In this document: piece by piece, positions 40,799 through 59,560 of the stretch | How positions within the stretch are numbered: position 1 is the first letter of the stretch | Layout: the number at the start of each line of letters is the position of its first letter | Assembly (NCBI RefSeq): GCF_024385505.1 | Contig: NZ_JANFLT010000001.1 | Location: forward strand, 124,001-188,000 | Reading direction: 5' to 3' | Length of the DNA: 64,000 bases | From: Arthrobacter zhaoxinii | GTDB taxonomy: Bacteria > Actinomycetota > Actinomycetes > Actinomycetales > Micrococcaceae | Position numbers and translations under genes: made by a program | Notes under the pieces: model-generated | The model's input: the letters and a program-made list of their open reading frames with translations, nothing else | Told to the model about the DNA's origin: nothing | The model's database searches: none

Positions 40799-40812
40799 CT
40801 GGAGATTCTCAG

Positions 40813-41181
40813 TGGAGATGGGGGGAATCGAACCCCCGTCCGATGTCGCTTTGTCAGGGCTTCTCCGGGCGCAGTCTGCATCGGATTTTCTCGGTCCCAG
40901 CCATCACGCAGACAAGTGGCTGATCCGGACCCAGCCGTCTAAAAGTCCCGAACACCCCAACGGCGAAGGTGTTCAGCAGTGGCCCTCTAAATGACGCCAG
41001 GCACCGGGGCGAGAGCATCCCCGGGCTGACGGACTATGCCTTACTGCTTAGGCAGCAAGAGCGAAGTCAGTGCGCTTTGATTCGGCACTTATTGGTTTAC
41101 AGAGATCGTTAACGAGATAACCCTGTATCCTCGGCCCGCTTCCCCTGTCTCAACAAAACATCGTCGAAACCGGTCATCCCC
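40813..41181 (-). ncRNA. ssrA: Transfer-messenger RNA (tmRNA)
   Basis: Stable RNA of about 369 nt that rescues stalled ribosomes with SmpB. The 5' end GGGGATGACCGGTTTCGAC and the 3' end, with the T-arm GGTTCGATTCCCCCC and acceptor strand CATCTCC, pair over seven positions (one G-U) to form the tRNA-like acceptor stem. The CCA is not encoded. The internal reading frame gives the tag AESKRTDFALAA. smpB lies just upstream with one small gene between. A perfect TATAAT -10 precedes it and a hairpin terminator follows. Confidence 0.96.
41048..41086 (-). other. tmRNA tag-peptide reading frame
   Basis: The resume codon GCC (41084-41086) opens GCC GAA TCA AAG CGC ACT and so on, ending in TAA at 41048-41050. 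It encodes AESKRTDFALAA, close to the usual actinobacterial ADSKRTDFALAA tag; the terminal ALAA is the ClpXP-type degradation signal. Confidence 0.93.
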
Positions 41182-45387: not shown

Positions 45388-47574
45388 GTGCCCACAGATT
45401 CCTCCGTAGCAGCCCCCGGTGCCGCCGCCGCGGAGGTTCCGGGTTTCCCGGGCACCTCCGGCGATCCCCTGGCATCCAGCAGAGGACGCCGTGCCCTGCG
45501 CAGCACCCAGGGCGGTTCCGCCGGCATCCGCCGCGACATCCAGGGCCTGCGGGCCCTCGCCGTCGTGCTGGTGCTGGTGTACCACGTCTGGCCGGCAGCC
45601 CTGCCGGGCGGCTTTGTCGGCGTCGACGTCTTCTTTGTTATCTCCGGCTATCTGATTGTCGGTTCCCTGGTCCGGGAACTCAATGCCTCCTCTTCCATTG
45701 CCCTGGCATCGTTCTACGCCCGGCGCATCCGCCGGCTGCTTCCGGCCGCGGCGACTGTCCTGCTCGCAACCCTGGGCGCAGCTGTGCTCCTCTTCCCCGA
45801 GGGGCGGTGGCAGTCAGTTGCCAGGGACGTTGCGGCCTCAAGCCTCAATGTCCAGAACTGGAACCAGGCCTTCAGCACCACCAGCTATGCCGGGGCCACG
45901 GCGGCCGTGTCCCCGCTTCAGCATTACTGGTCCCTCGCGGTGGAGGAACAGTTCTACCTGGTGATGCCCGTGCTCCTGCTCGGCGCCGCCGCCGCCGTCC
46001 GTGCCCTCGGAATCCGCGCAGGCCTGCCCGCTACCGCACTGGCGGTGGTCTGCGGCTTCTCCGTGGTGTCCTTCGCCCATTCAGTACAGTTCTCGACGTC
46101 GGACCCCGGCCTGGCCTACTTCTTCACCACCACCAGGGTCTGGGAACTCGGCCTCGGCGGAATCCTTGCACTCGCGGCCGCCGGAGGAACCCTGCCGCGG
46201 CAGCTTTCCACGGCCTTCGGATGGACCGGAATCCTGGTGATTTTCGCTGCCGCGGCCGGTTTCTCCACCGCGATGTCCTTTCCCGGTTGGGTGGCGCTGG
46301 TGCCCACCGCAGGAGCTGCGCTGTGCCTGATCGCCGGCCAGGGCGGTGATGCCGCCGCCGCACCGTGGATCTCGGCCGGCTGGTGGCAGTCACTGCGTCC
46401 GGTGGCGTACGTCGGGGACATTTCCTATTCCCTGTACCTGTGGCATTGGCCGGTCACCGTGTTCACCGTGTATTTCCTCGGACACACGCCTGGACTCTTG
46501 GAAGGCGCAGCAATCATCGTCTCGAGCGTCCTTTTGGCCGTGCTGTCCACGCGGTTCATCGAGAAACCGTTCCGCCGGTTACGGGATAAGACCGGGTCTG
46601 CGGGCCGTCACGGAGCGAAGAAGGGGACGCACCGCGGCACTTATGCACTGGCGGCGGTCCTGATCACGGTTCCGATCGCCGTTGCCGCCGTGCCGTACGG
46701 AGTGGTCCAGCAGAAAATCACTGACCTGACCGCGGACTACGATTCCGGCTCCTATCCCGGCGCCATGGCTTTCGATCCCCGGGACCCGGCAGCTGTGCCC
46801 GGGGATCAGCCGCTGCGGCCGGCACCCGCGGCCGCGCTGGCGGACGTCCCGGATATCGACAGAGCCTGCACGTCCTACGATCCGGCGAAAACATCCTACG
46901 AGGAATGTGTGTTCGGCGATCCCGAAGCGACGCGGGCAATGGTCCTGGTGGGTGATTCCCATGCGGCGCAGTACATGGCCCCGCTGGATGCTGTTGCAAG
47001 GGACGGCGGCTACCGCCTCTATGTCCTGACCCGCAACGGATGCCCGTTCAATGCCGAACCGCTGCACAGCGACACCTATGTCTACGCGCCATGCGCCGCC
47101 CAGAACCTCGAAACGGTCCGGGACATCCTGGATATCAAACCCGAACTCGTAGTGACGTCGGCCATGCGGCCGGACAGCTACGAGCACGCCCTCGGCTGGA
47201 GCTGGGACTCCGGGCGCCGCGCCGTGGACGGCTATCTGGAGGTGCTCGAGCCGCTGGAGGACGCAGGCATCCGGATCGGCGTCATCGCCGACATTCCCTA
47301 TCCGAAGTCCAGCATCCCCGACTGCGTGGTGGAAAAGGACAGCGCGGACGACTGCTTCGTGCTCCGCTCCGACCTTGCCGGGCAGGACGATCCCCTGGTT
47401 GAAGCGGCCGAACAGCTGGACGGGAGCCGAACCGTCGATCTGACGGACTATTTCTGCGGCGACGAGCGGTGCCCGGCCGTCATCGGTAACGTCCTGGCCT
47501 ACCGGGACAACCACATGACGAATACCTTCGCCCGGACCCTGGTCCTGCCGCTGCGGGAGAAGCTGGGCTTCTAG
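45388..47574 (+). CDS. Acyltransferase family 3 with C-terminal SGNH domain (OafA type)
   Basis: Membrane O-acyltransferase of 728 residues: a short polar N-terminus, an acyltransferase-3 domain with about ten membrane segments (about 45-420, including GFVGVDVFFVISGYLIVG and HYWSLAVEEQFYL), and an extracytoplasmic SGNH domain with GDSH (522-525) and a late DNH (707-709), so its triad is intact. Such proteins acetylate cell-wall sugars or peptidoglycan/polysaccharide. It is transcribed against ftsE and prfB, interrupting the usual prfB-ftsE linkage. GTG start; ribosome site weak. Confidence 0.9.
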   Translation: MPTDSSVAAPGAAAAEVPGFPGTSGDPLASSRGRRALRSTQGGSAGIRRDIQGLRALAVVLVLVYHVWPAALPGGFVGVDVFFVISGYLIVGSLVRELNASSSIALASFYARRIRRLLPAAATVLLATLGAAVLLFPEGRWQSVARDVAASSLNVQNWNQAFSTTSYAGATAAVSPLQHYWSLAVEEQFYLVMPVLLLGAAAAVRALGIRAGLPATALAVVCGFSVVSFAHSVQFSTSDPGLAYFFTTTRVWELGLGGILALAAAGGTLPRQLSTAFGWTGILVIFAAAAGFSTAMSFPGWVALVPTAGAALCLIAGQGGDAAAAPWISAGWWQSLRPVAYVGDISYSLYLWHWPVTVFTVYFLGHTPGLLEGAAIIVSSVLLAVLSTRFIEKPFRRLRDKTGSAGRHGAKKGTHRGTYALAAVLITVPIAVAAVPYGVVQQKITDLTADYDSGSYPGAMAFDPRDPAAVPGDQPLRPAPAAALADVPDIDRACTSYDPAKTSYEECVFGDPEATRAMVLVGDSHAAQYMAPLDAVARDGGYRLYVLTRNGCPFNAEPLHSDTYVYAPCAAQNLETVRDILDIKPELVVTSAMRPDSYEHALGWSWDSGRRAVDGYLEVLEPLEDAGIRIGVIADIPYPKSSIPDCVVEKDSADDCFVLRSDLAGQDDPLVEAAEQLDGSRTVDLTDYFCGDERCPAVIGNVLAYRDNHMTNTFARTLVLPLREKLGF

Positions 47575-47626
47575 CCGGGCAGTGCGGTCCGGCGGGCCGG
47601 GCAGTGCGGTCCGGCGGGCCGGGCAG
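47575..47626. repeat. Tandem 22-base repeat
   Basis: Units at 47575-47596 and 47597-47618 are identical (each begins CCGGGCAGTGCGGTCC), and a third partial copy covers 47619-47626. They fill the space between the acyltransferase stop and the prfB stop. Likely slippage or an insertion scar; no T-run, so not a clear terminator. Confidence 0.9.
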
Positions 47627-47627
47627 C

Positions 47628-48746
47628 CTACTTGCGGGCCGAGACGCTGCCGTGCGCGCGCCAGCGGATGCCGGCGTCGATGAAGTCATCAATCTCGCCG
47701 TCGAACACGGCCGAGGTGTTGCCCACCTCGTGCTCGGTGCGCAGGTCCTTGACCATCTGGTACGGGTTGAGCACGTAGGAGCGCATCTGGTCGCCCCAGG
47801 ACGCCTTGACGTCGCCGGCGAAGGCCTTCTTCTCGGCGTCCTCCTGCTCCTTCTTCAGCAGCAGCAGGCGGGACTGGAGCACGCGCATGGCTGCGGCGCG
47901 GTTCTGCAGCTGCGACTTTTCGTTCTGCATGGACACCACCGTTCCGGTGGGAAGGTGTGTGAGCCGCACGGCGGAGTCGGTGGTGTTCACGGACTGGCCG
48001 CCGGGGCCGGAGGACCGGAAAACGTCTACGCGGATCTCGTTGTCCGGGATGTCGATGTGGTCCGTGGGCGCAATCAGCGGGATAACCTCGACGGCGGCAA
48101 AGGAGGTCTGCCGGCGGCCCTGGTTATCGAACGGGCTGATGCGGACCAGGCGGTGCGTGCCGGCCTCCACCACCAGGGTGCCGAAGGCGTAGGGGGCCTT
48201 GACCTCGAAGGTGGCGGACTTCAGGCCGGCCTCTTCGGCATAGGACGTATCCAGGACCGTGGTGGGGTACCCGTGGCGTTCGGCCCAGCGCAGGTACATC
48301 CGCAGCAGCATTTCCGCGAAGTCGGCAGCGTCCACTCCCCCGGCGCCGGAGCGGATGGTGACCACGGCTTCGCGTTCGTCGTACTCGCCGGACAGCAGGG
48401 TCACCACTTCCAGCTGCGACAGGGACTTGCGGAGGGACTCCAGCTCCGTCACGGCCTCTGCCCTGGTCTCGGCGTCGGCCTCGTCCTGGGCCAGCTCCAC
48501 CATGACCTCAAGGTCGTCGATGCGGGACTCGATGGTCTGCAGGCGTTCCAGCTCCGACTGGCGGTGCGAGAGTTTGGAGGTGACCTTCTGCGCCTCGGAG
48601 GGGTCGTCCCAGAGATCGGGGACGCCGGCCATCTCGCTGAGCTCTTCGATGTCCTCTTTGATCTTTGCCACGTCCGAGACCTCTTCGATGGAGGCGAAGG
48701 TGGAGCGGAGGGCGCGGATTTCTGCGGGAAAATCTATTTCTGCCAT
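47628..48746 (-). CDS. prfB: Peptide chain release factor 2
   Basis: Class I release factor for UGA and UAA codons, 372 residues. The stop-codon recognition tripeptide SPF ([15 protein letters not shown]) and the peptidyl-transferase GGQ ([14 protein letters not shown], near 247) are present. The frame is continuous from the ATG with no in-frame TGA, so the programmed +1 frameshift known from other bacteria is absent here. Normally adjacent to ftsE in actinobacteria; here an acyltransferase gene lies between. Confidence 0.95.
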
Positions 48747-48915
48747 GGTGCTTACAGCCTACGCCATGTCCCTGTGCCGCCGCCCGCCGCCGTCGTCGTG
48801 CCGGGCACGGGAAGTGCGGGACGCGCCGGGGAGGTGCGGGCCGGGGCGTCGGCGGGCGGCGTTAGATTAAAGGGACGGATACGGAACTGTCTGCCCTTTC
48901 GAAGGAGCTAAAGCC

Positions 48916-49200
48916 TTGACCCATCCCGAGCGCGGACGCATGTACAGCCTGGACGAACTCAACGACCTCGCCGAGCAGGGCGATCCCTGGGCCATGGGGA
49001 AGGTCGATGAGTGGGAGCAGCACTTCTCCAACGAATATGTGGGCAGCATGAAGGACAAGTGCCCCGACCGGAACTGCGAACAGTTCGGCGAGCCGGTGAC
49101 CATTTGCTACGGCGAAAACGGCAGGATCCTGGACGTGGACCACGGCGGCTGGGGGCACGGTCCGGTGCGCGAGGCGGAAGAGCAGCGGAGGGCGTCGTAG
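48916..49200 (+). CDS. Conserved hypothetical protein, 94 residues
   Basis: Acidic small protein with no recognised domain; notable features are KCPDRNCEQ (two cysteines six positions apart, near 48-54) and a His/Gly segment DVDHGGWGHG (near 73-82). TTG start with a strong GAAGGAG eight bases upstream, which makes the gene credible. Its last 19 codons and stop (49144-49201) recur, slightly diverged, at 50783-50838 on the far side of the glycosyltransferase cassette. Confidence 0.7.
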   Translation: MTHPERGRMYSLDELNDLAEQGDPWAMGKVDEWEQHFSNEYVGSMKDKCPDRNCEQFGEPVTICYGENGRILDVDHGGWGHGPVREAEEQRRAS

Positions 49201-49201
49201 C
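49144..49201 (+). repeat. Direct repeat, left copy (3' end of the 94-residue gene)
   Basis: The segment from GGCGGCTGG through the TAG stop is repeated at 50783-50838 in the same orientation, with two one-base or two-base gaps and a few substitutions over about 57 bases. The two copies bracket 1.58 kb of lower-G+C DNA. Confidence 0.85.
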
Positions 49202-49272
49202 GGCCTGCACGCTTCAGGCGTACTGCACCGGTGCCGGCCGGTGGTTGGGGACATCAAGGTGCCCGCTTTTGC

Positions 49273-49428
49273 CTAGGGCCGGTTGGACGAATTCCTCTTC
49301 AGCAACGTGAACAGACCTACCGCAACGAATATCCCGCCTAGGATAAACAGGACCGTCGTGCCTATCTCCAACCCGGTTGCCGCGAGCCCGGCGACAAGAC
49401 CGGCAGCCAGACTTACTCCCAGCATCAT
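49273..49428 (-). CDS. Small two-helix membrane protein, 51 residues
   Basis: Starts MMLGVSLAAGLVAGL and has two hydrophobic segments (about 3-18 and 22-43) and a basic end (LLKRNSSNRP). Its ATG overlaps the glycosyltransferase stop (ATGA), and GGGGTGGG precedes it, so it is co-translated with that enzyme. It may be an accessory subunit of a polysaccharide synthase; no family recognised. Part of the low-G+C cassette. Confidence 0.6.
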   Translation of the reverse strand: MMLGVSLAAGLVAGLAATGLEIGTTVLFILGGIFVAVGLFTLLKRNSSNRP

Positions 49429-50549
49429 CCCACCCCCTCTGCTTTGTATTGCGCAGCCCACAAGTCGCGATCTTTGTGGGTGATCTTTTTGCGGAGGATT
49501 TCCCCCCAGGAAGCGAGAATCCATCCGCCGCGTATGCACGCCAAGAGCTCAATCGGGAATATACAGACGACGATAAGGAAGTCCCACTTGTCCTTATACG
49601 GGACGCGAAGGGCAGTCTTGAGGTTGATAGCTACGAACAATAAGGGCACGAGCAGTCCCCACCAAGCTATTGTGAAAGCATCCAGGTATAGCGCCAGGGA
49701 AATTACCATCACCCAGAGCGCCCGGATTGCAGGACCGAGCAGATTGAGCATCTGGCTCGCCCAATCCCTGACGGTTAGACGGTTGACTCCGAAGCGAAGC
49801 AGATCCTGCAGGGTACCTGCCTGCCACTTCATGCGCTGCCCCCACAGGGACTTCAGGTTCTTCATCCCGTCCGTATATGCCCTGATGGTGGTGGATACAT
49901 AGGTCTTGTATCCCGCTTCCCGAAGTCGGTAAGTCAGCTCGTAGTCCTCCACCGCGCTTTCGTACGACCACGGCCCTTCCCTGTCATCCCTCGCGGCAAT
50001 CTCCCTTAGGGCCGCACCGGAGAACGCAGACCCGGCGCCTGCCAGGACATTGGTCCACCCATGATCCAGCCCCTGTTGGATGTTGTAGGCGTATTCGGAT
50101 TTCTGCAGTCTGCACCACAATCCGGGCTGCCGGATGGTGAATTTGGAAGTCGATCCTCCGAAGAGACGCTTCCATGATTCCTTCTCCCAGTCTTCGATGG
50201 CGTTAGGGACAAGCACAGTGTCTGCGTCCATGGACACCACGAGATCGGAGTAGCGGCCATACAAATTCCACCCCCTGTTCATGGCCTCGGACTTCCGGTG
50301 TTTCAAGCGGGGCAGGTCCATGACGGTTACGGGGTACTTCTTTGCCACGTCCACCGTCTGATCAGTGCATCCATTGGCGATAACGACGATCCGGTCCGGC
50401 AGCCGGGTCTGCACGAGAAGGGACTCAATGGTTTGCCCGATGGTTTCTTCCTCGTTGTGTGCCGGTACCAGTACTGTGATATCGATTTTCTCCCCGCGCA
50501 CGCGGATCAATTCCCGGGTCTCGCCCTCGATTACCCCTACTGCATCCAC
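49425..50549 (-). CDS. Family 2 glycosyltransferase, membrane, processive-synthase type
   Basis: Enzyme of 374 residues with a GT-A domain from about residue 22: ITVLVPAHNEEETIG, the DxD motif MDADT (near 106), the acceptor motif VEDYE (near 196) and a QRMKW motif (near 238) matching the QxxRW-like signature of processive polysaccharide synthases. Three to four hydrophobic segments follow (about 260-350). The product is unknown. The first 19 residues (MDAVGVIEGETRELIRVRG) are not GT sequence but match the start of TadA. Base composition is clearly lower in G+C than the neighbours (126 of 240 bases in 49441-49680), a sign of transfer. GTG start with AGGA upstream. Confidence 0.85.
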   Translation of the reverse strand: MDAVGVIEGETRELIRVRGEKIDITVLVPAHNEEETIGQTIESLLVQTRLPDRIVVIANGCTDQTVDVAKKYPVTVMDLPRLKHRKSEAMNRGWNLYGRYSDLVVSMDADTVLVPNAIEDWEKESWKRLFGGSTSKFTIRQPGLWCRLQKSEYAYNIQQGLDHGWTNVLAGAGSAFSGAALREIAARDDREGPWSYESAVEDYELTYRLREAGYKTYVSTTIRAYTDGMKNLKSLWGQRMKWQAGTLQDLLRFGVNRLTVRDWASQMLNLLGPAIRALWVMVISLALYLDAFTIAWWGLLVPLLFVAINLKTALRVPYKDKWDFLIVVCIFPIELLACIRGGWILASWGEILRKKITHKDRDLWAAQYKAEGVG

Positions 50550-50689
50550 TGGCGGTCCTCCGTGTAGGCGCGGGATGGACCGGACATGTCGTCTCTCCCG
50601 CGAGAATGGTGCAGTCCGTTTATGGCTACGGCGTCAGGCTAGGGACGAGTGAGGGCTTTAGCGAGGGTAGGACGCGGGCGAGCGAAAAG

Positions 50690-50729
50690 TCGGGTAGGCT
50701 ACCCGCGGCTCGGGTCGGCTACCCGCGGC
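50690..50729. repeat. Tandem 20-base repeat
   Basis: TCGGGTAGGCTACCCGCGGC (50690-50709) and TCGGGTCGGCTACCCGCGGC (50710-50729) differ at one base. The first unit contains the inverted repeat GGGTA-GGC-TACCC, so each unit can fold into a short hairpin. Confidence 0.85.
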
Positions 50730-50782
50730 GCCGGAGGCCCTGGGAGCAAGTAGTCCGCGGCGGCGCCGGTGTAAGGGAACGG

Positions 50783-50838
50783 GGCGGCTGGGGCACGGTC
50801 CGGTGCGCGAGGCGGAAAACAGCGGAAGGCGTCGTAGC
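50783..50838 (+). pseudogene. Direct repeat, right copy: fragment of the 94-residue gene's 3' end
   Basis: About 56 bases homologous to 49144-49201, including the TAG stop, with a one-base and a two-base deletion that break the frame. No start or upstream coding part is present, so it is a non-functional remnant marking the other edge of the glycosyltransferase cassette. Confidence 0.8.
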
Positions 50839-50860
50839 CTTTCCCGGGATCGGCAGAGCC

Positions 50861-51346
50861 TCACTGCAGCAGCCGGGCACGCGCCTCGCTCACCGCGGTG
50901 ATGGAGATTCCCTCCGGCACCAGGAAATTCACTATCGGCGGATAGACCCGGGCCGTCAGCACCACGCGGGCCGTCCGGCCATCCGCAGTGCCGGTCTCCT
51001 CGGCCACCGCCAAATCCGTGAACCGTCCCTCCGCACCGGTGTCGACAAGATAGCTGCGTGCGGCATTGCGCACGGCGTCGGCCTGAAGCACCGCAGCGGG
51101 ACCGGCTCCCGGGCCGGCCTCCCCCAGCGAGAAGGTATCGGCCGCAGCCACCGCCGCACCGTCGGCGGCCGAGAGCAGCTTCTTCTGCCCGAGATAGACG
51201 CTTGACGCCGCCATCACCACGGTGACGGTCAGCATCGCCAGGACGGCGTACCCGATGATCAGCACCCCCACCTGTCCCCGCTCCCCATCCTCCCGCTGCC
51301 TGCCCGGCGGTCTGGTCCGGAGCCCCGGGCTCGCTGCCGGGTTCAT
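50861..51346 (-). CDS. Tad pilus-locus protein, TadE/TadG-like (Rv3654c type)
   Basis: Protein of 161 residues with one N-terminal membrane helix (about 30-50) preceded by ERGQVGVLIIGYAVLA, the hydrophobic TadE/G-like segment, and a small extracellular domain beginning QKKLLSAADGAAVAAAD. Last gene of the tad operon; its ATG overlaps the preceding stop (ATGA at 51343-51346). Likely a minor pilin-like or assembly protein. Family members of this group are short compared with full TadG. Confidence 0.78.
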   Translation of the reverse strand: MNPAASPGLRTRPPGRQREDGERGQVGVLIIGYAVLAMLTVTVVMAASSVYLGQKKLLSAADGAAVAAADTFSLGEAGPGAGPAAVLQADAVRNAARSYLVDTGAEGRFTDLAVAEETGTADGRTARVVLTARVYPPIVNFLVPEGISITAVSEARARLLQ

Positions 51347-51780
51347 CCGAACCGCTCCACAATCTGCGTGGACTCGGAATCCACTACTACCGGTGATCCG
51401 GCGGTCCACGGCAGCCCGGGAAGAGGCACCTCGAACCGGATGCTGACTGTGACTGTCGAGCCGGGCACCAGGCAGGTGTCGGAACAGCTGACGTCCACCA
51501 GCATGCTGTCGGCCTCCAGCCCGAAGTCGCTCAGCGCGAGCTCGGCTGCGTCCGCCGCCCGCTGCTCGGCAACGACGGCGTCGGGCGCCGCCGCATAGAC
51601 CCGGGCCGCCGCATCCGCTGCGCCGACCACCGCGAATGATGCCGCCTGCACCTGGCCGACGGTAATCACCAGGTACACCACCGGCACCAGCAGGAGCAGG
51701 CCCAGGAAAATGAATTCGACAACGGCACTGCCGTCTTCCTCCGGCGGCTGCCTCTCCGTCCCCTCACCGCAGGACGGCAT
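51343..51780 (-). CDS. TadE-like pilus assembly protein (second copy)
   Basis: Protein of 145 residues with the TadE signature EDGSAVVEFIFLGLLLLVPVVYLVI (helix about 20-42) and a periplasmic/extracellular domain containing CSDTC (near 102-106), a possible disulfide. The ATG at 51780 overlaps the end of the upstream tadE by 17 bases. It is paralogous to the gene before it, and together they resemble the paired TadE-like genes of the mycobacterial Flp locus. Confidence 0.82.
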   Translation of the reverse strand: MPSCGEGTERQPPEEDGSAVVEFIFLGLLLLVPVVYLVITVGQVQAASFAVVGAADAAARVYAAAPDAVVAEQRAADAAELALSDFGLEADSMLVDVSCSDTCLVPGSTVTVSIRFEVPLPGLPWTAGSPVVVDSESTQIVERFG

Positions 51781-53485: not shown

Positions 53486-54339
53486 CGCAGCACCCTTACG
53501 TCTTCGGGCAAGGCCCCTATCCGCATCATCAGGCGGTAGCAAAGGACGGAGATGCCGATCCCGGCAACGAGGACAGTGGCACCGGCCGCCGAGTTGTACG
53601 CTGCGGCCGTTTCCGGCCGGGCTGCCAGCAGCAGCAGCACCGCCCAGGGCGCTCCCACGGCCAGCCTCGCCGCATTCACGGTCCAGGACTGCCGGGCCAG
53701 CAGTTCGCTGCGGGTTCGTGCGTTCTCGCGAAGGAACCCGGCCAGTGTGCCAAGGAGCCGGCCCAGATCGGTACCGCCCACCTGGCGAGTGATCCGCAGC
53801 GCCTCGATGATCCGGTCCGCGACCGGATCAGCGAGGTTGTCCTTGAGCCGGGTCAGCGAGTCCTCGAAGTTGCCCCCGGCCCGGTAGTCCGCGGCAAACG
53901 AACGGAAGTACCCCCGCAGCTCCTCCGGCCCGTTCCCCGCCAATTGGATGAGCGCTTCCGGAAGCGACAGGCCTGCCCGGATTGCCGAGCGCAGGTGGTC
54001 GACGACGTCGGGCCATAGTTCCGCCAGGGACGCCCTTCGGCGGCGGGCCTGGAAACGCACGAGCGCATAGGGCACTGCCGAACCAAACAGGCCGAAGCAG
54101 GCTGCGATGGGCAGGGAAAGTGTCAGGATGAACAGCAGGAGCATCACACAGCTGCCTGTGACCGCGCAGCTGACGAGGAGCCCCGGCGCCTTGACCCGTT
54201 CGATTCCTGCCTGCCGCAGAAGGTCGTCGAGGTACCCGGTGCGGCGCCGCCTGGACCGGGGGCGGGCGGGGGTACTCCAGCAGGACTGCCACAGCAGCAA
54301 CAGCCCCATGCCCAGGACCAACCCGACGGCGGCGCTCAT
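53482..54339 (-). CDS. tadB: Type II secretion F-family protein TadB
   Basis: Inner-membrane platform protein of 285 residues with a first segment (1-17), a hydrophobic pair (about 45-80), a T2SSF domain (about 105-225, including IRAGLSLPEALIQLAGNGPEE) and C-terminal segments (about 228-275). Together with TadC and the TadA ATPase it forms the machine that extrudes Flp-type pili. Start overlaps the tadA stop (ATGA at 54336-54339). Confidence 0.87.
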   Translation of the reverse strand: MSAAVGLVLGMGLLLLWQSCWSTPARPRSRRRRTGYLDDLLRQAGIERVKAPGLLVSCAVTGSCVMLLLFILTLSLPIAACFGLFGSAVPYALVRFQARRRRASLAELWPDVVDHLRSAIRAGLSLPEALIQLAGNGPEELRGYFRSFAADYRAGGNFEDSLTRLKDNLADPVADRIIEALRITRQVGGTDLGRLLGTLAGFLRENARTRSELLARQSWTVNAARLAVGAPWAVLLLLAARPETAAAYNSAAGATVLVAGIGISVLCYRLMMRIGALPEDVRVLR

Positions 54340-55562
54340 GCCGCGGCACCGAGCAGGGCGGCGATGTTGACACCGGCGGAGGCAAATTTATCGGCCGCCG
54401 GCATGGAGGAGGCCGTCACGGTCAGTTTCCCGTCCACCTGCCCGAACACGGGAGATGACTCAATGATCCCGCCCTCGACGCGCCGGCCCAGGGCCAGGAT
54501 CTCGCTGACCTGCCGGCGCCCGGTGCCGGTCCGGGCGCAGTGAACCACCAGATCGATGCAGGACGCCACGGTCGGAACCACGAAGGCACTGGAAATGTTT
54601 GCGCCCGCCAACAGCGGCAGCGTGCACAGTTTGGTTACCGCGTCCCGTGCACTGTTCGCGTGGATGGTGCACATCCCAGGCAGGCCTGCGTTCAGGGCGA
54701 TCAGCATGTCCAGGCTCTCGGCTTCCCGGACCTCCCCGACGATCAACCGGTCCGGCCGCATCCGCAGTGCTTCTTTCACCAGCCGGCGGAGGGGAATCTC
54801 GCCTTGACCCTCCAGGTTTGCCTGGCGGCATTGAAGCCCCACCACATCGCGCAGCGGCAGCTGCAGCTCAAAGATCTCCTCCACGGTCACCACGCGTTCC
54901 CGCGGACCGATGGATGCACCAAGGCAGTTGAGCATGGTGGTCTTTCCCGCCTGCGTTGCTCCCGAAACCAGGATGTTCAGCCCCGCAGCAACGGCGGCTC
55001 CGAGGAAGCGGGCAGCATCCGGGGTCAGGGTGCCCAGCTCAACCAGGTGGTCAAGACGGCGGGCACGGGCCACGAATTTGCGGATATTCACCGCCCAATG
55101 CCGTCTGGTCACATCCGGGATGGCCACGTGCAGGCGGGAACCATCCGGCAGGGCTGCGTCCACGAACGGCGAGGAAAGATCAAGGCGCCTGCCCGAAGAC
55201 TTCAGCATCCGTTCCACCAGCAGCCGAACCTGCTCCGGTGTCAGGGTCAGGGAAGTCAGTTCGGACCGGCCGTCCCGCGCAAGGTAGATCTCCGAGGGCG
55301 AGTTGATCCAGACTTCCTCCACCGTGGGGTCGTCCAGCAGCGGCTGGAGCACACCGAAGCCGGCAACGGCGTCGAACACCTGCCGGCGGACCATGTCCGG
55401 CCTGCCCAGCGGCGGGAGGCTGCCGAGCAGCGACCGTTCGTCGTAATCCGAAACCGCTGCGTCCACCAGCCGACGGACTTCGGCGAACTGCTCCTGCGGA
55501 TCGAGTCCGCGCACGCGGATGAGCTCCCGCACCTCGTCTTCGACGATCTGCACAGCATCCAT
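54336..55562 (-). CDS. tadA: Tad pilus assembly ATPase TadA/CpaF
   Basis: Type II/IV secretion ATPase of 408 residues powering pilus assembly. An N-terminal helical domain is followed by a RecA-like domain with Walker A GATQAGKTT (near 199-207, Ala-Thr-Gln where GxGSGKT is common), an Asp-box region VVTVEEIFELQL, Walker B-type RLIVGEVREAE and a His-box segment CTIHANSARDA. The ATG at 55562 has GGGGGA upstream; TTG 55577 and ATG 55568 are alternatives. First gene of tadA-tadB-tadC-pilin-tadE-tadE-tadG-like, all overlapping or closely spaced. No tadZ/ssd gene precedes it. Confidence 0.92.
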   Translation of the reverse strand: MDAVQIVEDEVRELIRVRGLDPQEQFAEVRRLVDAAVSDYDERSLLGSLPPLGRPDMVRRQVFDAVAGFGVLQPLLDDPTVEEVWINSPSEIYLARDGRSELTSLTLTPEQVRLLVERMLKSSGRRLDLSSPFVDAALPDGSRLHVAIPDVTRRHWAVNIRKFVARARRLDHLVELGTLTPDAARFLGAAVAAGLNILVSGATQAGKTTMLNCLGASIGPRERVVTVEEIFELQLPLRDVVGLQCRQANLEGQGEIPLRRLVKEALRMRPDRLIVGEVREAESLDMLIALNAGLPGMCTIHANSARDAVTKLCTLPLLAGANISSAFVVPTVASCIDLVVHCARTGTGRRQVSEILALGRRVEGGIIESSPVFGQVDGKLTVTASSMPAADKFASAGVNIAALLGAAA

Positions 55563-57196: not shown

Positions 57197-59560
57197 GTGA
57201 ATAAAACAACGCTCACCCGCTGGCTTGGGAGTGCGGCCCTAACCGGTGCCCTGGTTTGCAGCATGTCACCTGCGCTAGCCGGGCCCCTGGACCCAACCGC
57301 ACCGTCCCCGTCCGCTTCCCCGGTACCCGCCACAGCGCCGACGACCACCCCGGAGACAACACCGGTACCGGCAAACACGGCGCCGGCTCCGGAACCTGCA
57401 CCGGCAACCGCGCCGGCAACAGACGGGGGCGGTGATACCGCACTCAAGGCTCCGCCCGCACCTGCAACCCCCGAACCTGCCCCGGCGGATGCAGACTCCG
57501 CCAAGGCAACAGCGAAAGAGGAAGCCGGCCTGCTGGGCGCCCACATGGGGCAGGGCCTGGAACGCCTGCTGACCACCGGCGATCCCCAGGTCCCCACCGC
57601 TGAGGACGAACAGAAGGAAGCAGAAGCCGAGATCGGCCTGGAAGCGCCGTTGCGCGTTCCCGACACCACTGCAGGCGAACCGCCCGCGGCCACGGCCACG
57701 GCCACTTCCTTTGAGGCTAAGCCGGCCTATGCAGCCTCCATGGCAGCTACCTGGATGCCTGCCGGCATCCAGGGCCTGGACGTAAGCAGCCATCAGGAAA
57801 ACGTTGACTGGGCTGCGGCATGGCGCCAGGGATCGCGCTTTGCCTATACCAAGGCAACCGAGGGCACCTATTACAAAAACCCGTACTACAAGCAGCAGTA
57901 CAACGGCGCCGCCAACGTCGGCATGGTCCGCGGCGCCTATCACTTCGCCATCCCCGCGGTTGGCTCCGGAGCAGAGGAAGCAAACTTCTTCGTGAACAAC
58001 GGCGGAGGCTGGTCCGCTGACGGGCGCACGCTCCCGCCACTTCTGGACATCGAGTACAACCCTTACCCCCAGCTGGGTAATACCTGCTACAACCTCAGTC
58101 CGACGCAGATGATCACGTGGATCAGGGACTTCTCCAATACCGTCAAGGCCCGCACCGGCCGCGTTCCGATGATCTACTCGACCACCGACTGGTGGCAGAC
58201 GTGTACCGGCAACACGAACGCGTTCGCCAACCATCCGTTGCACATCGCCTCGTACGCCAAGGCCCCCGGGGCTCTTCCGAACGGCTGGTCGGCGTACACG
58301 GTCTGGCAGTACTCGAGCACGGGTCCCTTCGTCGGTGATTCCAACGTGTTCAACGGCACCACAGCTGATCTGGCCCGTTTCGTCCGCAACGATTCGCCTG
58401 CCGGCAGCGGTTCGCCCGCTGCTTCAGCCATCAGCCGGGTAGCAGCAGCCAACCCGGTTTTGGGAAAGTCCACCAGTTCAGTGAACTGCGGGCTTAAGGA
58501 CGGCGGGTGTTACCAGAACTTCGACGGCGGAGCCGTGCTCTGGTCTCCCGCGACGGGGGCGCATCCCAGTCGCAACGGTTCGATCCGCAAGGCCTACCAG
58601 GCCAGCGGGTTCGAAAACGGAGTACTGGGCTATCCGCGCAGCCCCGAGGTCTGCGGCATCAAGAACAACGGCTGCTACCAGGATTTCCAGGGCGGATCCA
58701 TCCTCTGGTCCTCCGCCACCGGAGCCCAGGTCAGCCCGAACGGCCCCCTCCGGACCGCTTACCAGAAACAGGGCTTCGAAAACGGAGCCCTCGGCTATCC
58801 CACGGGCGGACAGGTCTGCGGCATCAAGGACAACGGCTGCTACCAGAACTTCTCCGGCGGAGCCATCCTCTGGTCCGCAGCGACCGGTGCCCAGGTCAGC
58901 GCCAACCGTGCGATCCGCACTGCCTACCAGGCCGCCGGTTTCGAAAACGGGGTACTGGGCTACCCGAGAGGCCCCGAGGTCTGCGGCATCAAGAACAACG
59001 GCTGCTATCAGGATTTCCAGGGCGGAGCCATCCTCTGGTCCTCCGCCACCGGAGCCCAGGTCAGCCCGAACGGCCCTATCCGGACCTCCTACCAGAAACA
59101 GGGCTTCGAAAACGGGGCCCTCGGCTATCCCACGGGCGGACAGGTCTGCGGCATCAGGGACAACGGCTGCTACCAGAACTTCTCCGGCGGAGCCATCCTC
59201 TGGTCCTCCGCCACCGGAGCCCAGCCCAGCCCGAACGGCCCTATCCGGACCTCTTACCAGAAACACGGCTTCGAGAACGGCGGCCTCGGCTACCCGACCG
59301 GCGGACAGGTCTGCGGCATCAAGGACAACGGCTGCTACCAGAACTACCAGGGCGGAGCCATCACCTGGTCGAAGTCCGTTGGAGCACATCCGACGGCAGG
59401 GGAAATCCGCAGGAAGTGGCAGTCCACCGGCTTTGAGAAGGGTGTCCTGGGCTACCCCACCGCAGATGAAAGCTGCAAGGCCGGCAAATGCACCCAGCCC
59501 TTCCAGGGCGGACGGATCGACTGGACCAAGGCCGGGGGCGCCGTCGTCACCCGGAAGTAA
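57197..59560 (+). CDS. Secreted GH25 lysozyme with C-terminal LGFP-type repeats
   Basis: Exported muramidase of 787 residues: signal peptide (1-31, cut near ALAGP), a long Ala/Pro/Thr-rich linker (about 32-185), a GH25 lysozyme domain (about 190-395) with GLDVSSHQ, the catalytic DIE in PLLDIEYN (near 283-287) and WQYSSTGPF, and seven LGFP-like repeats of about 55 residues (about 418-787). Each repeat has a LGYP/LGKS core and most have the cysteine pair CGIKxNGC. LGFP repeats bind the cell envelope in related bacteria. GTG start with GGAG upstream. Probably cleaves peptidoglycan during growth or autolysis. Confidence 0.92.
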   Translation: MNKTTLTRWLGSAALTGALVCSMSPALAGPLDPTAPSPSASPVPATAPTTTPETTPVPANTAPAPEPAPATAPATDGGGDTALKAPPAPATPEPAPADADSAKATAKEEAGLLGAHMGQGLERLLTTGDPQVPTAEDEQKEAEAEIGLEAPLRVPDTTAGEPPAATATATSFEAKPAYAASMAATWMPAGIQGLDVSSHQENVDWAAAWRQGSRFAYTKATEGTYYKNPYYKQQYNGAANVGMVRGAYHFAIPAVGSGAEEANFFVNNGGGWSADGRTLPPLLDIEYNPYPQLGNTCYNLSPTQMITWIRDFSNTVKARTGRVPMIYSTTDWWQTCTGNTNAFANHPLHIASYAKAPGALPNGWSAYTVWQYSSTGPFVGDSNVFNGTTADLARFVRNDSPAGSGSPAASAISRVAAANPVLGKSTSSVNCGLKDGGCYQNFDGGAVLWSPATGAHPSRNGSIRKAYQASGFENGVLGYPRSPEVCGIKNNGCYQDFQGGSILWSSATGAQVSPNGPLRTAYQKQGFENGALGYPTGGQVCGIKDNGCYQNFSGGAILWSAATGAQVSANRAIRTAYQAAGFENGVLGYPRGPEVCGIKNNGCYQDFQGGAILWSSATGAQVSPNGPIRTSYQKQGFENGALGYPTGGQVCGIRDNGCYQNFSGGAILWSSATGAQPSPNGPIRTSYQKHGFENGGLGYPTGGQVCGIKDNGCYQNYQGGAITWSKSVGAHPTAGEIRRKWQSTGFEKGVLGYPTADESCKAGKCTQPFQGGRIDWTKAGGAVVTRK
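58610..59269 (+). repeat. 330-base tandem duplication within the LGFP repeat region
   Basis: Units 2-3 (about 58610-58939) and units 4-5 (about 58940-59269) are near-identical in DNA, for example AGTACTGGGC at 58621 and GGTACTGGGC at 58951. Within each pair the two 55-residue units differ in a fixed way (PRxPEVCGIKNN..QDFQGG then PTGGQVCGIK/RDN..QNFSGG), so duplication happened as a two-unit block. Confidence 0.88.

Follow-up and report, generated by a model that had tools for sequence, protein, structure and literature searches.

A glycosyltransferase gene pair under the apparent control of a copied tadA start at the tad locus of Arthrobacter zhaoxinii

Two copies of the 3' end of a small gene bracket a low-G+C glycosyltransferase gene pair in Arthrobacter zhaoxinii, raising the question of whether a site-specific mobile element left this duplication as a scar or whether it came from recombination of another kind. 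To address this question, we analyzed a stretch of 64,000 nucleotides (hereafter the window) and compared it to a genus sample of 29 genomes, one per species plus G059, a second genome of the species; the window genome is G000. The duplicated gene end looks like the debris of duplicating recombination and not like a site-specific mobile-element scar.

The duplicated end of U94 and the genes between its copies

The intact gene, U94 (94 codons; 48916 to 49200, plus strand), is a conserved open reading frame present in all 29 genus genomes searched (28 plus G059), and neither Pfam nor NCBIfam gave it a match at E 0.001. As the initial annotation held, its end occurs twice, stop codon included. 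The left copy is the 3' end of U94 itself (49144 to 49201, plus strand), and the right copy (50783 to 50838, plus strand) is a remnant that abuts the original junction with tadE3; the two align over 58 columns at 93.1% identity (E 4e-17 in a search within the locus). A whole-genome search with a 68-base query (49136 to 49203) returned these two copies and no third. Elsewhere in the window, a perfect 22-base tandem repeat lies at 47574 to 47617, at the end of an acyltransferase gene before prfB.

The open reading frame list holds two plausible genes between the copies, the pair initially annotated there, both on the minus strand: a GT2 family glycosyltransferase gene of 374 codons (49425 to 50549) and TM51, encoding a 51-residue membrane protein (49273 to 49428), in translational overlap with the GT2 stop. 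Recounting gave exactly the low G+C content first reported (126 G/C per 240 bases at 49441 to 49680), and the GT2 body has a G+C fraction of 0.567 against 0.656 for the whole window. The composition edge anticipated near the right repeat, however, is displaced. The low-G+C part ends near 50550, and the 233 bases just inside the repeat (50550 to 50782) reach 0.682 because this stretch is a tad-derived leader.

GT2 family membership is established by scores above the Pfam gathering values for PF13641 (E 2.6e-19; 70.6 bits against 27), PF00535 (E 4.9e-17; 62.8 against 23.3), and PF13632 (E 1.3e-13; 51.7 against 27). The D-x-D, ED, and Q-R-x-K-W positions are invariant in 20 aligned homologues and, judged by these motifs, the protein is a processive-type glycosyltransferase; its matches to solved-structure profiles run mainly over the N-terminal catalytic part. 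The best NCBIfam match is TIGR03937 (8e-19), the PgaC/IcaA poly-GlcNAc synthase, which likewise combines GT2 motifs with a small membrane partner, but the window protein scores 67.9 bits, far under the equivalog cut-off of 422.3. Values of dN/dS between 0.11 and 0.19 indicate purifying selection on GT2.

TM51 homologues follow GT2 in the other five genus carriers, and counterparts were seen by eye behind GT2 homologues in 7 of 7 loci outside the genus. The protein has a LAATG stretch (LAYTG in Pseudarthrobacter counterparts), a hydrophobic segment, and a basic tail, a combination that we take to resemble a sortase-type sorting signal. When 44 loci in named genomes were surveyed, up to 10 kb per side as far as the contig reached, tad genes lay near the pair at a single one, L088, itself a member of the genus. 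This points to an ancient pair whose tad linkage is, as far as seen, local to the genus.

A tadA leader and start ahead of the glycosyltransferase gene

The first 19 codons of GT2 (50493 to 50549, minus strand) are derived from tadA, the gene of the pilus ATPase, and fused in frame to the rest of the gene. They encode VDAVGVIEGETRELIRVRG, homologous to the host TadA start, MDAVQIVEDEVRELIRVRG (E 1.3e-4), and the DNA homology between the GT2 and tadA starts runs on through the leader, a captured tadA promoter region of the G019 type (50550 to 50740, minus strand). The host's own tadA (54336 to 55562, minus strand) has a promoter of a type unlike the GT2 leader. We compared cassette leaders to 26 genus tadA leaders; the fetched stretch lacked tadA in three genomes, and tad genes beyond it were not placed for G005, G021, and G022. 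The G019 tadA leader is the best match in all five cassettes having a leader, whose hosts' own tadA leaders rank 22, 15, 14, 11, and 4 of 26. These five and the G019 leader form one clade (support 96/86) in a tree of 183 columns, 6 of whose 26 inner branches are well supported. Farther out, at 50741 to 50762 (minus strand), a weak and short by-eye match may mark the last codons of a VanY-type carboxypeptidase gene, one that in relatives precedes tadA.

A Shine-Dalgarno-like stretch and ATG ahead of GT2 are retained in G004, G012, and G019, and the ancestral ATG reads ATC in the window, G011, and G026. With this ATG lost, GT2 probably initiates at the start codon of tadA, the GTG at 50547 to 50549, though an internal GTG inside the fused codons could be an alternative. 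Homology and ATG loss together present a foreign gene joined to the promoter and start of another gene, as in promoter capture, and expression of the pair apparently relies on the copied start of tadA. The relatives form a graded series of tadA remnants, from a cassette inside the operon, through about 360 bp of tadA and then about 24 codons, to the fusion.

The captured leader contains an operator-like inverted repeat, CGGGTAGGCTACCCG (50691 to 50705). A scan of six genomes gave no sign of a regulon built on it, with 1 to 3 sites per genome compared to 1 to 5 for a reversed control pattern; the single site in G019 and two of the three in G004 lie in tad-type leaders. Another word, the DnaA-box-like TTATCCACA, was considered as a mark of all native tadA promoters and rejected on its count, as 18 of the 26 genomes carry it in the 250 bases before tadA (L133 and L073, for example).

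Empty site, slots, and remnants across the genus

The initial annotation proposed looking for an empty site with a single repeat copy as support for insertion, and such a site exists. In G059, which has no GT2, U94 runs directly into tadE3, the TadE/G-like last gene of the host tad operon (50861 to 51409 in the window, minus strand; PF13400, 3.2e-5). Window positions 48747 to 49201 (96.9%) and 50783 to 51409 (96.0%) align to one contiguous G059 stretch sharing the 58 bases, and the right repeat copy continues into the same downstream sequence as the empty site. This favors insertion as the origin of the arrangement; the G059 site itself reflects either insertion in the window lineage or precise loss in G059, histories that leave indistinguishable traces. 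Nor do all relatives carry the genes and both repeats, the pattern named as evidence of an old, stable locus: GT2 (E 1e-60) was found in 6 of 29 genus genomes (the window, G004, G011, G012, G019, and G026), with cassette homologues 82 to 94% identical in amino acid sequence.

The six carriers have the pair in four slots. The window, G011, and G026 carry it in the gap from U94 to tadE3, and G012 carries it in the gap from prfB to U94. In G019 it lies between tadE2 and tadE1 in the reading direction of the operon, and in G004 it lies upstream of tadA. Carriers are scattered on the rpoB tree, with five changes, four of them forced by well-supported branches, and cluster no better than after shuffling of the labels (as few changes in 191 of 500 shuffles). 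Synonymous divergence, possibly affected by composition and saturation, is lower for GT2 than for prfB in 7 of 10 pairs among five carriers, or 8 of 10 counting G012 and G019, where the values are close (0.661 and 0.712). The difference is 0.312 versus 0.779 for G011 and G004, and GT2 slightly exceeds prfB for the window and G019 (0.630 versus 0.615) and for G004 and G019 (0.609 versus 0.563).

Remnants of the tad locus, local or from a donor, lie beside the cassette in 6 of 6 carriers, and their sequence differs from site to site. Besides the 58 bp of U94 in the window, these are 118 bp (90.7%) of U94 reaching into the tadE3 end in G011; a shortened, 82-bp version of the same in G026; 145 bp (77.9%) of the tadE2/tadE1 junction in G019; and, in G004, 298 and 65 bp of tadA and 75 bp of tadC, with the tadA remnant closer to G019 (83.3%) than to its own tadA (75.8%). 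G012 has no self-repeat at the cassette. Its left remnant is 87.7% identical to U94 of G011 and G026 and its right remnant 80% to tadE3 of G014 and G027; its own U94 and tadE3 are absent among the best matches listed, and the remnants resemble U94 and tadE3 of the window clade. No tadE3 remnant was detectable left of the window cassette (score 19, a value reached in 42 of 200 shuffles). A blanket count of repeats did not separate carriers (5 of 6) from noncarriers (12 of 23; Fisher p 0.35); the figures became 5 of 6 versus 1 of 23 only when the repetitive region before tadA was removed post hoc. The coding region upstream of tadA holds repeats with a period of about 165 bases in the window (58486 to 59000) and several relatives.

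Other genes also change slot. The U94-tadE3 gap holds a DUF2142 protein gene and a GtrA-like gene in G002, both found between prfB and U94 in G001 and G007 and the former also in G021; a VanY-type carboxypeptidase gene in G009, which seven other genomes have upstream of tadA; and a gene for a 444-residue protein without a Pfam match in G017, found upstream of tadA in G018 and G024. Contents of this gap (L068, L070, and L085) include a polysaccharide pyruvyl transferase, beside the VanY-type gene of G009. G003, which has no GT2, carries a second tadA promoter with about 17 tadA codons (L074, 10602 to 10850) ahead of an inserted G025-like gene of 666 codons (about 2 kb). The G025-like segment (84 to 92%) parts the two tadA starts, and the flanks are otherwise G001-like. 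Here an event of the same kind involved no GT2; by eye it has homology at one end and an illegitimate joint at the other, a ranking that the two ends of the window cassette do not permit.

Routes of insertion and their meaning

We consider it probable that the cassette is a horizontally acquired, tad-linked gene pair, inserted by duplicative recombination, after which redundant tad sequence eroded. A low-G+C GT2 gene and its membrane partner would have become tied to one lineage's Tad pilus operon, inside which they lie in G019 today, and a copy of a G019-like region would have been handed on to other species. In the window lineage, this copy would have come to lie between U94 and tadE3, with local sequence duplicated rather than replaced, whether by tandem duplication of the tad region or by insertion of donor DNA anchored by homology and with one sloppy end. 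Later deletion of most of the redundant sequence would leave the donor-type tadA promoter and start codon, 19 tadA codons fused to GT2, the partner gene, and the 58-base U94 remnant at the opposite edge. No integrase would be required. None of the 29 genus loci has two full tad copies or complete duplicate genes, and the duplication step is thus one that we infer. Also counting against this reading are the lack of a detectable tadE3 remnant left of the window cassette, the blanket repeat count, and the two carrier pairs in which GT2 dS exceeds that of prfB.

Other explanations account for parts of this pattern. In one of them, an element with its own integrase would have used the end of U94 for attachment and the cassette would be what is left of it, as the position of the repeat at a gene 3' end with its stop and the single-copy empty site would suggest. 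Insertion is indeed supported by that site and the patchy distribution, but the site-specific mode proposed for it is highly improbable: a constant attachment sequence is missing, with four slots and unlike duplicated flanks, the repeats range from 58 to 145 bp at 78 to 93% identity, and one cassette flank is tad promoter DNA. The absence of an integrase was borne out, as there is no recombinase gene among the open reading frames between the repeats and no PF00589 match in the window, three Phage_integrase matches lying elsewhere in the genome. The one Rfam match at gathering score in the window is a tmRNA (40810 to 41181) about 8 kb from the locus, and window positions 48700 to 51400 found no match in a plasmid collection. 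An integrase-free unit, in which the repeats recombine to a circle and a single crossover then puts this circle into a relative at its U94/tadE3 junction, regenerating the repeats each time, would explain the order in G011 (U94, tadE3 remnant, cassette, U94 remnant, tadE3) and the host-like bases of both copies in the window and G011. We regard it as unlikely, as 58 to 118 bp is short homology, gene conversion explains the same pattern, and the slots of G019, G004, and G012 are beyond its reach alone.

More serious, if still the lesser possibility, is that the pair inserted long ago, in an ancestor shared by the window, G011, and G026, and was inherited vertically there and lost precisely through the repeats in G059, G015, G014, and G027. 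The three share their cassette edges, precise loss is easy given a direct repeat, and GT2 divergence between the window and G011 (dS 0.189) is not far under that of prfB (0.341). Against this stand the scatter of carriers on the rpoB tree and the repeat copies themselves, as in the window, and likewise in G011, both carry bases of the host lineage. Since the breakpoints look shared, gene conversion or repeated reinsertion is needed to account for such bases, a difficulty for duplicative insertion as well. Even then, G012, G004, and G019 would still require transfer.

Duplicative insertion with later erosion has counterparts in known systems. Promoter capture by silent or transferred genes through deletion or tandem duplication is known experimentally, according to PMC11111574, which cites Anderson and Roth 1978 and Li and Bock 2019. 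There too, a transferred gene is fused to a neighboring promoter by duplication or deletion without dedicated mobile functions, but under laboratory selection, whereas the present series is natural and across species, in frame with donor start codons, and spread horizontally. In tandem duplication-random loss, a model for changes in gene order (PMC5745709, for example), a moved gene leaves partial copies of its neighbors; the five self-repeats and the window-clade-like remnants of G012 are such copies. The examples among the papers listed concern mitochondrial genomes; here the locus is part of a bacterial chromosome, donor alleles are mingled with those of the host, and no full duplicates were observed at the genus loci. 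Natural transformation can yield tandem duplications or merodiploids (PMC3784515), and this, like homology-facilitated illegitimate recombination (PMC3240628), leads from uptake or transfer to homology-anchored tandem duplication or additive insertion. Those duplications span about 100 to 900 kb or are experimental, unlike the sub-kilobase remnants at one locus here. No report of the GT2/tad arrangement was found in the literature searched, with subscription journals mostly outside its coverage.

In Micrococcus luteus, transformation needs the Flp pilus (PMC8467076). As the Tad (Flp) pilus serves DNA uptake there, one may speculate that the tad locus is shuffled by the uptake that it powers. 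More broadly, though we hold this tentatively and with considerable doubt, the tad locus of the genus could be a recombination-driven exchange zone where surface-glycan and cell-wall genes enter, capture its promoter, and hop between slots without mobile-element enzymes.

The locus records, in natural genomes and step by step, how transferred genes may gain a host promoter and start codon and move without a mobile element, and it cautions that a duplicated gene end next to low-G+C inserted DNA is not necessarily an attachment-site scar. All five relocated copies retain the tad-type leader and the sixth copy lies within the operon, which suggests that the glycosyltransferase is called for during pilus production. 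GT2 and TM51 would likely contribute to a surface polysaccharide made while the pilus operon is active, and such a link between pilus and surface glycan is testable.
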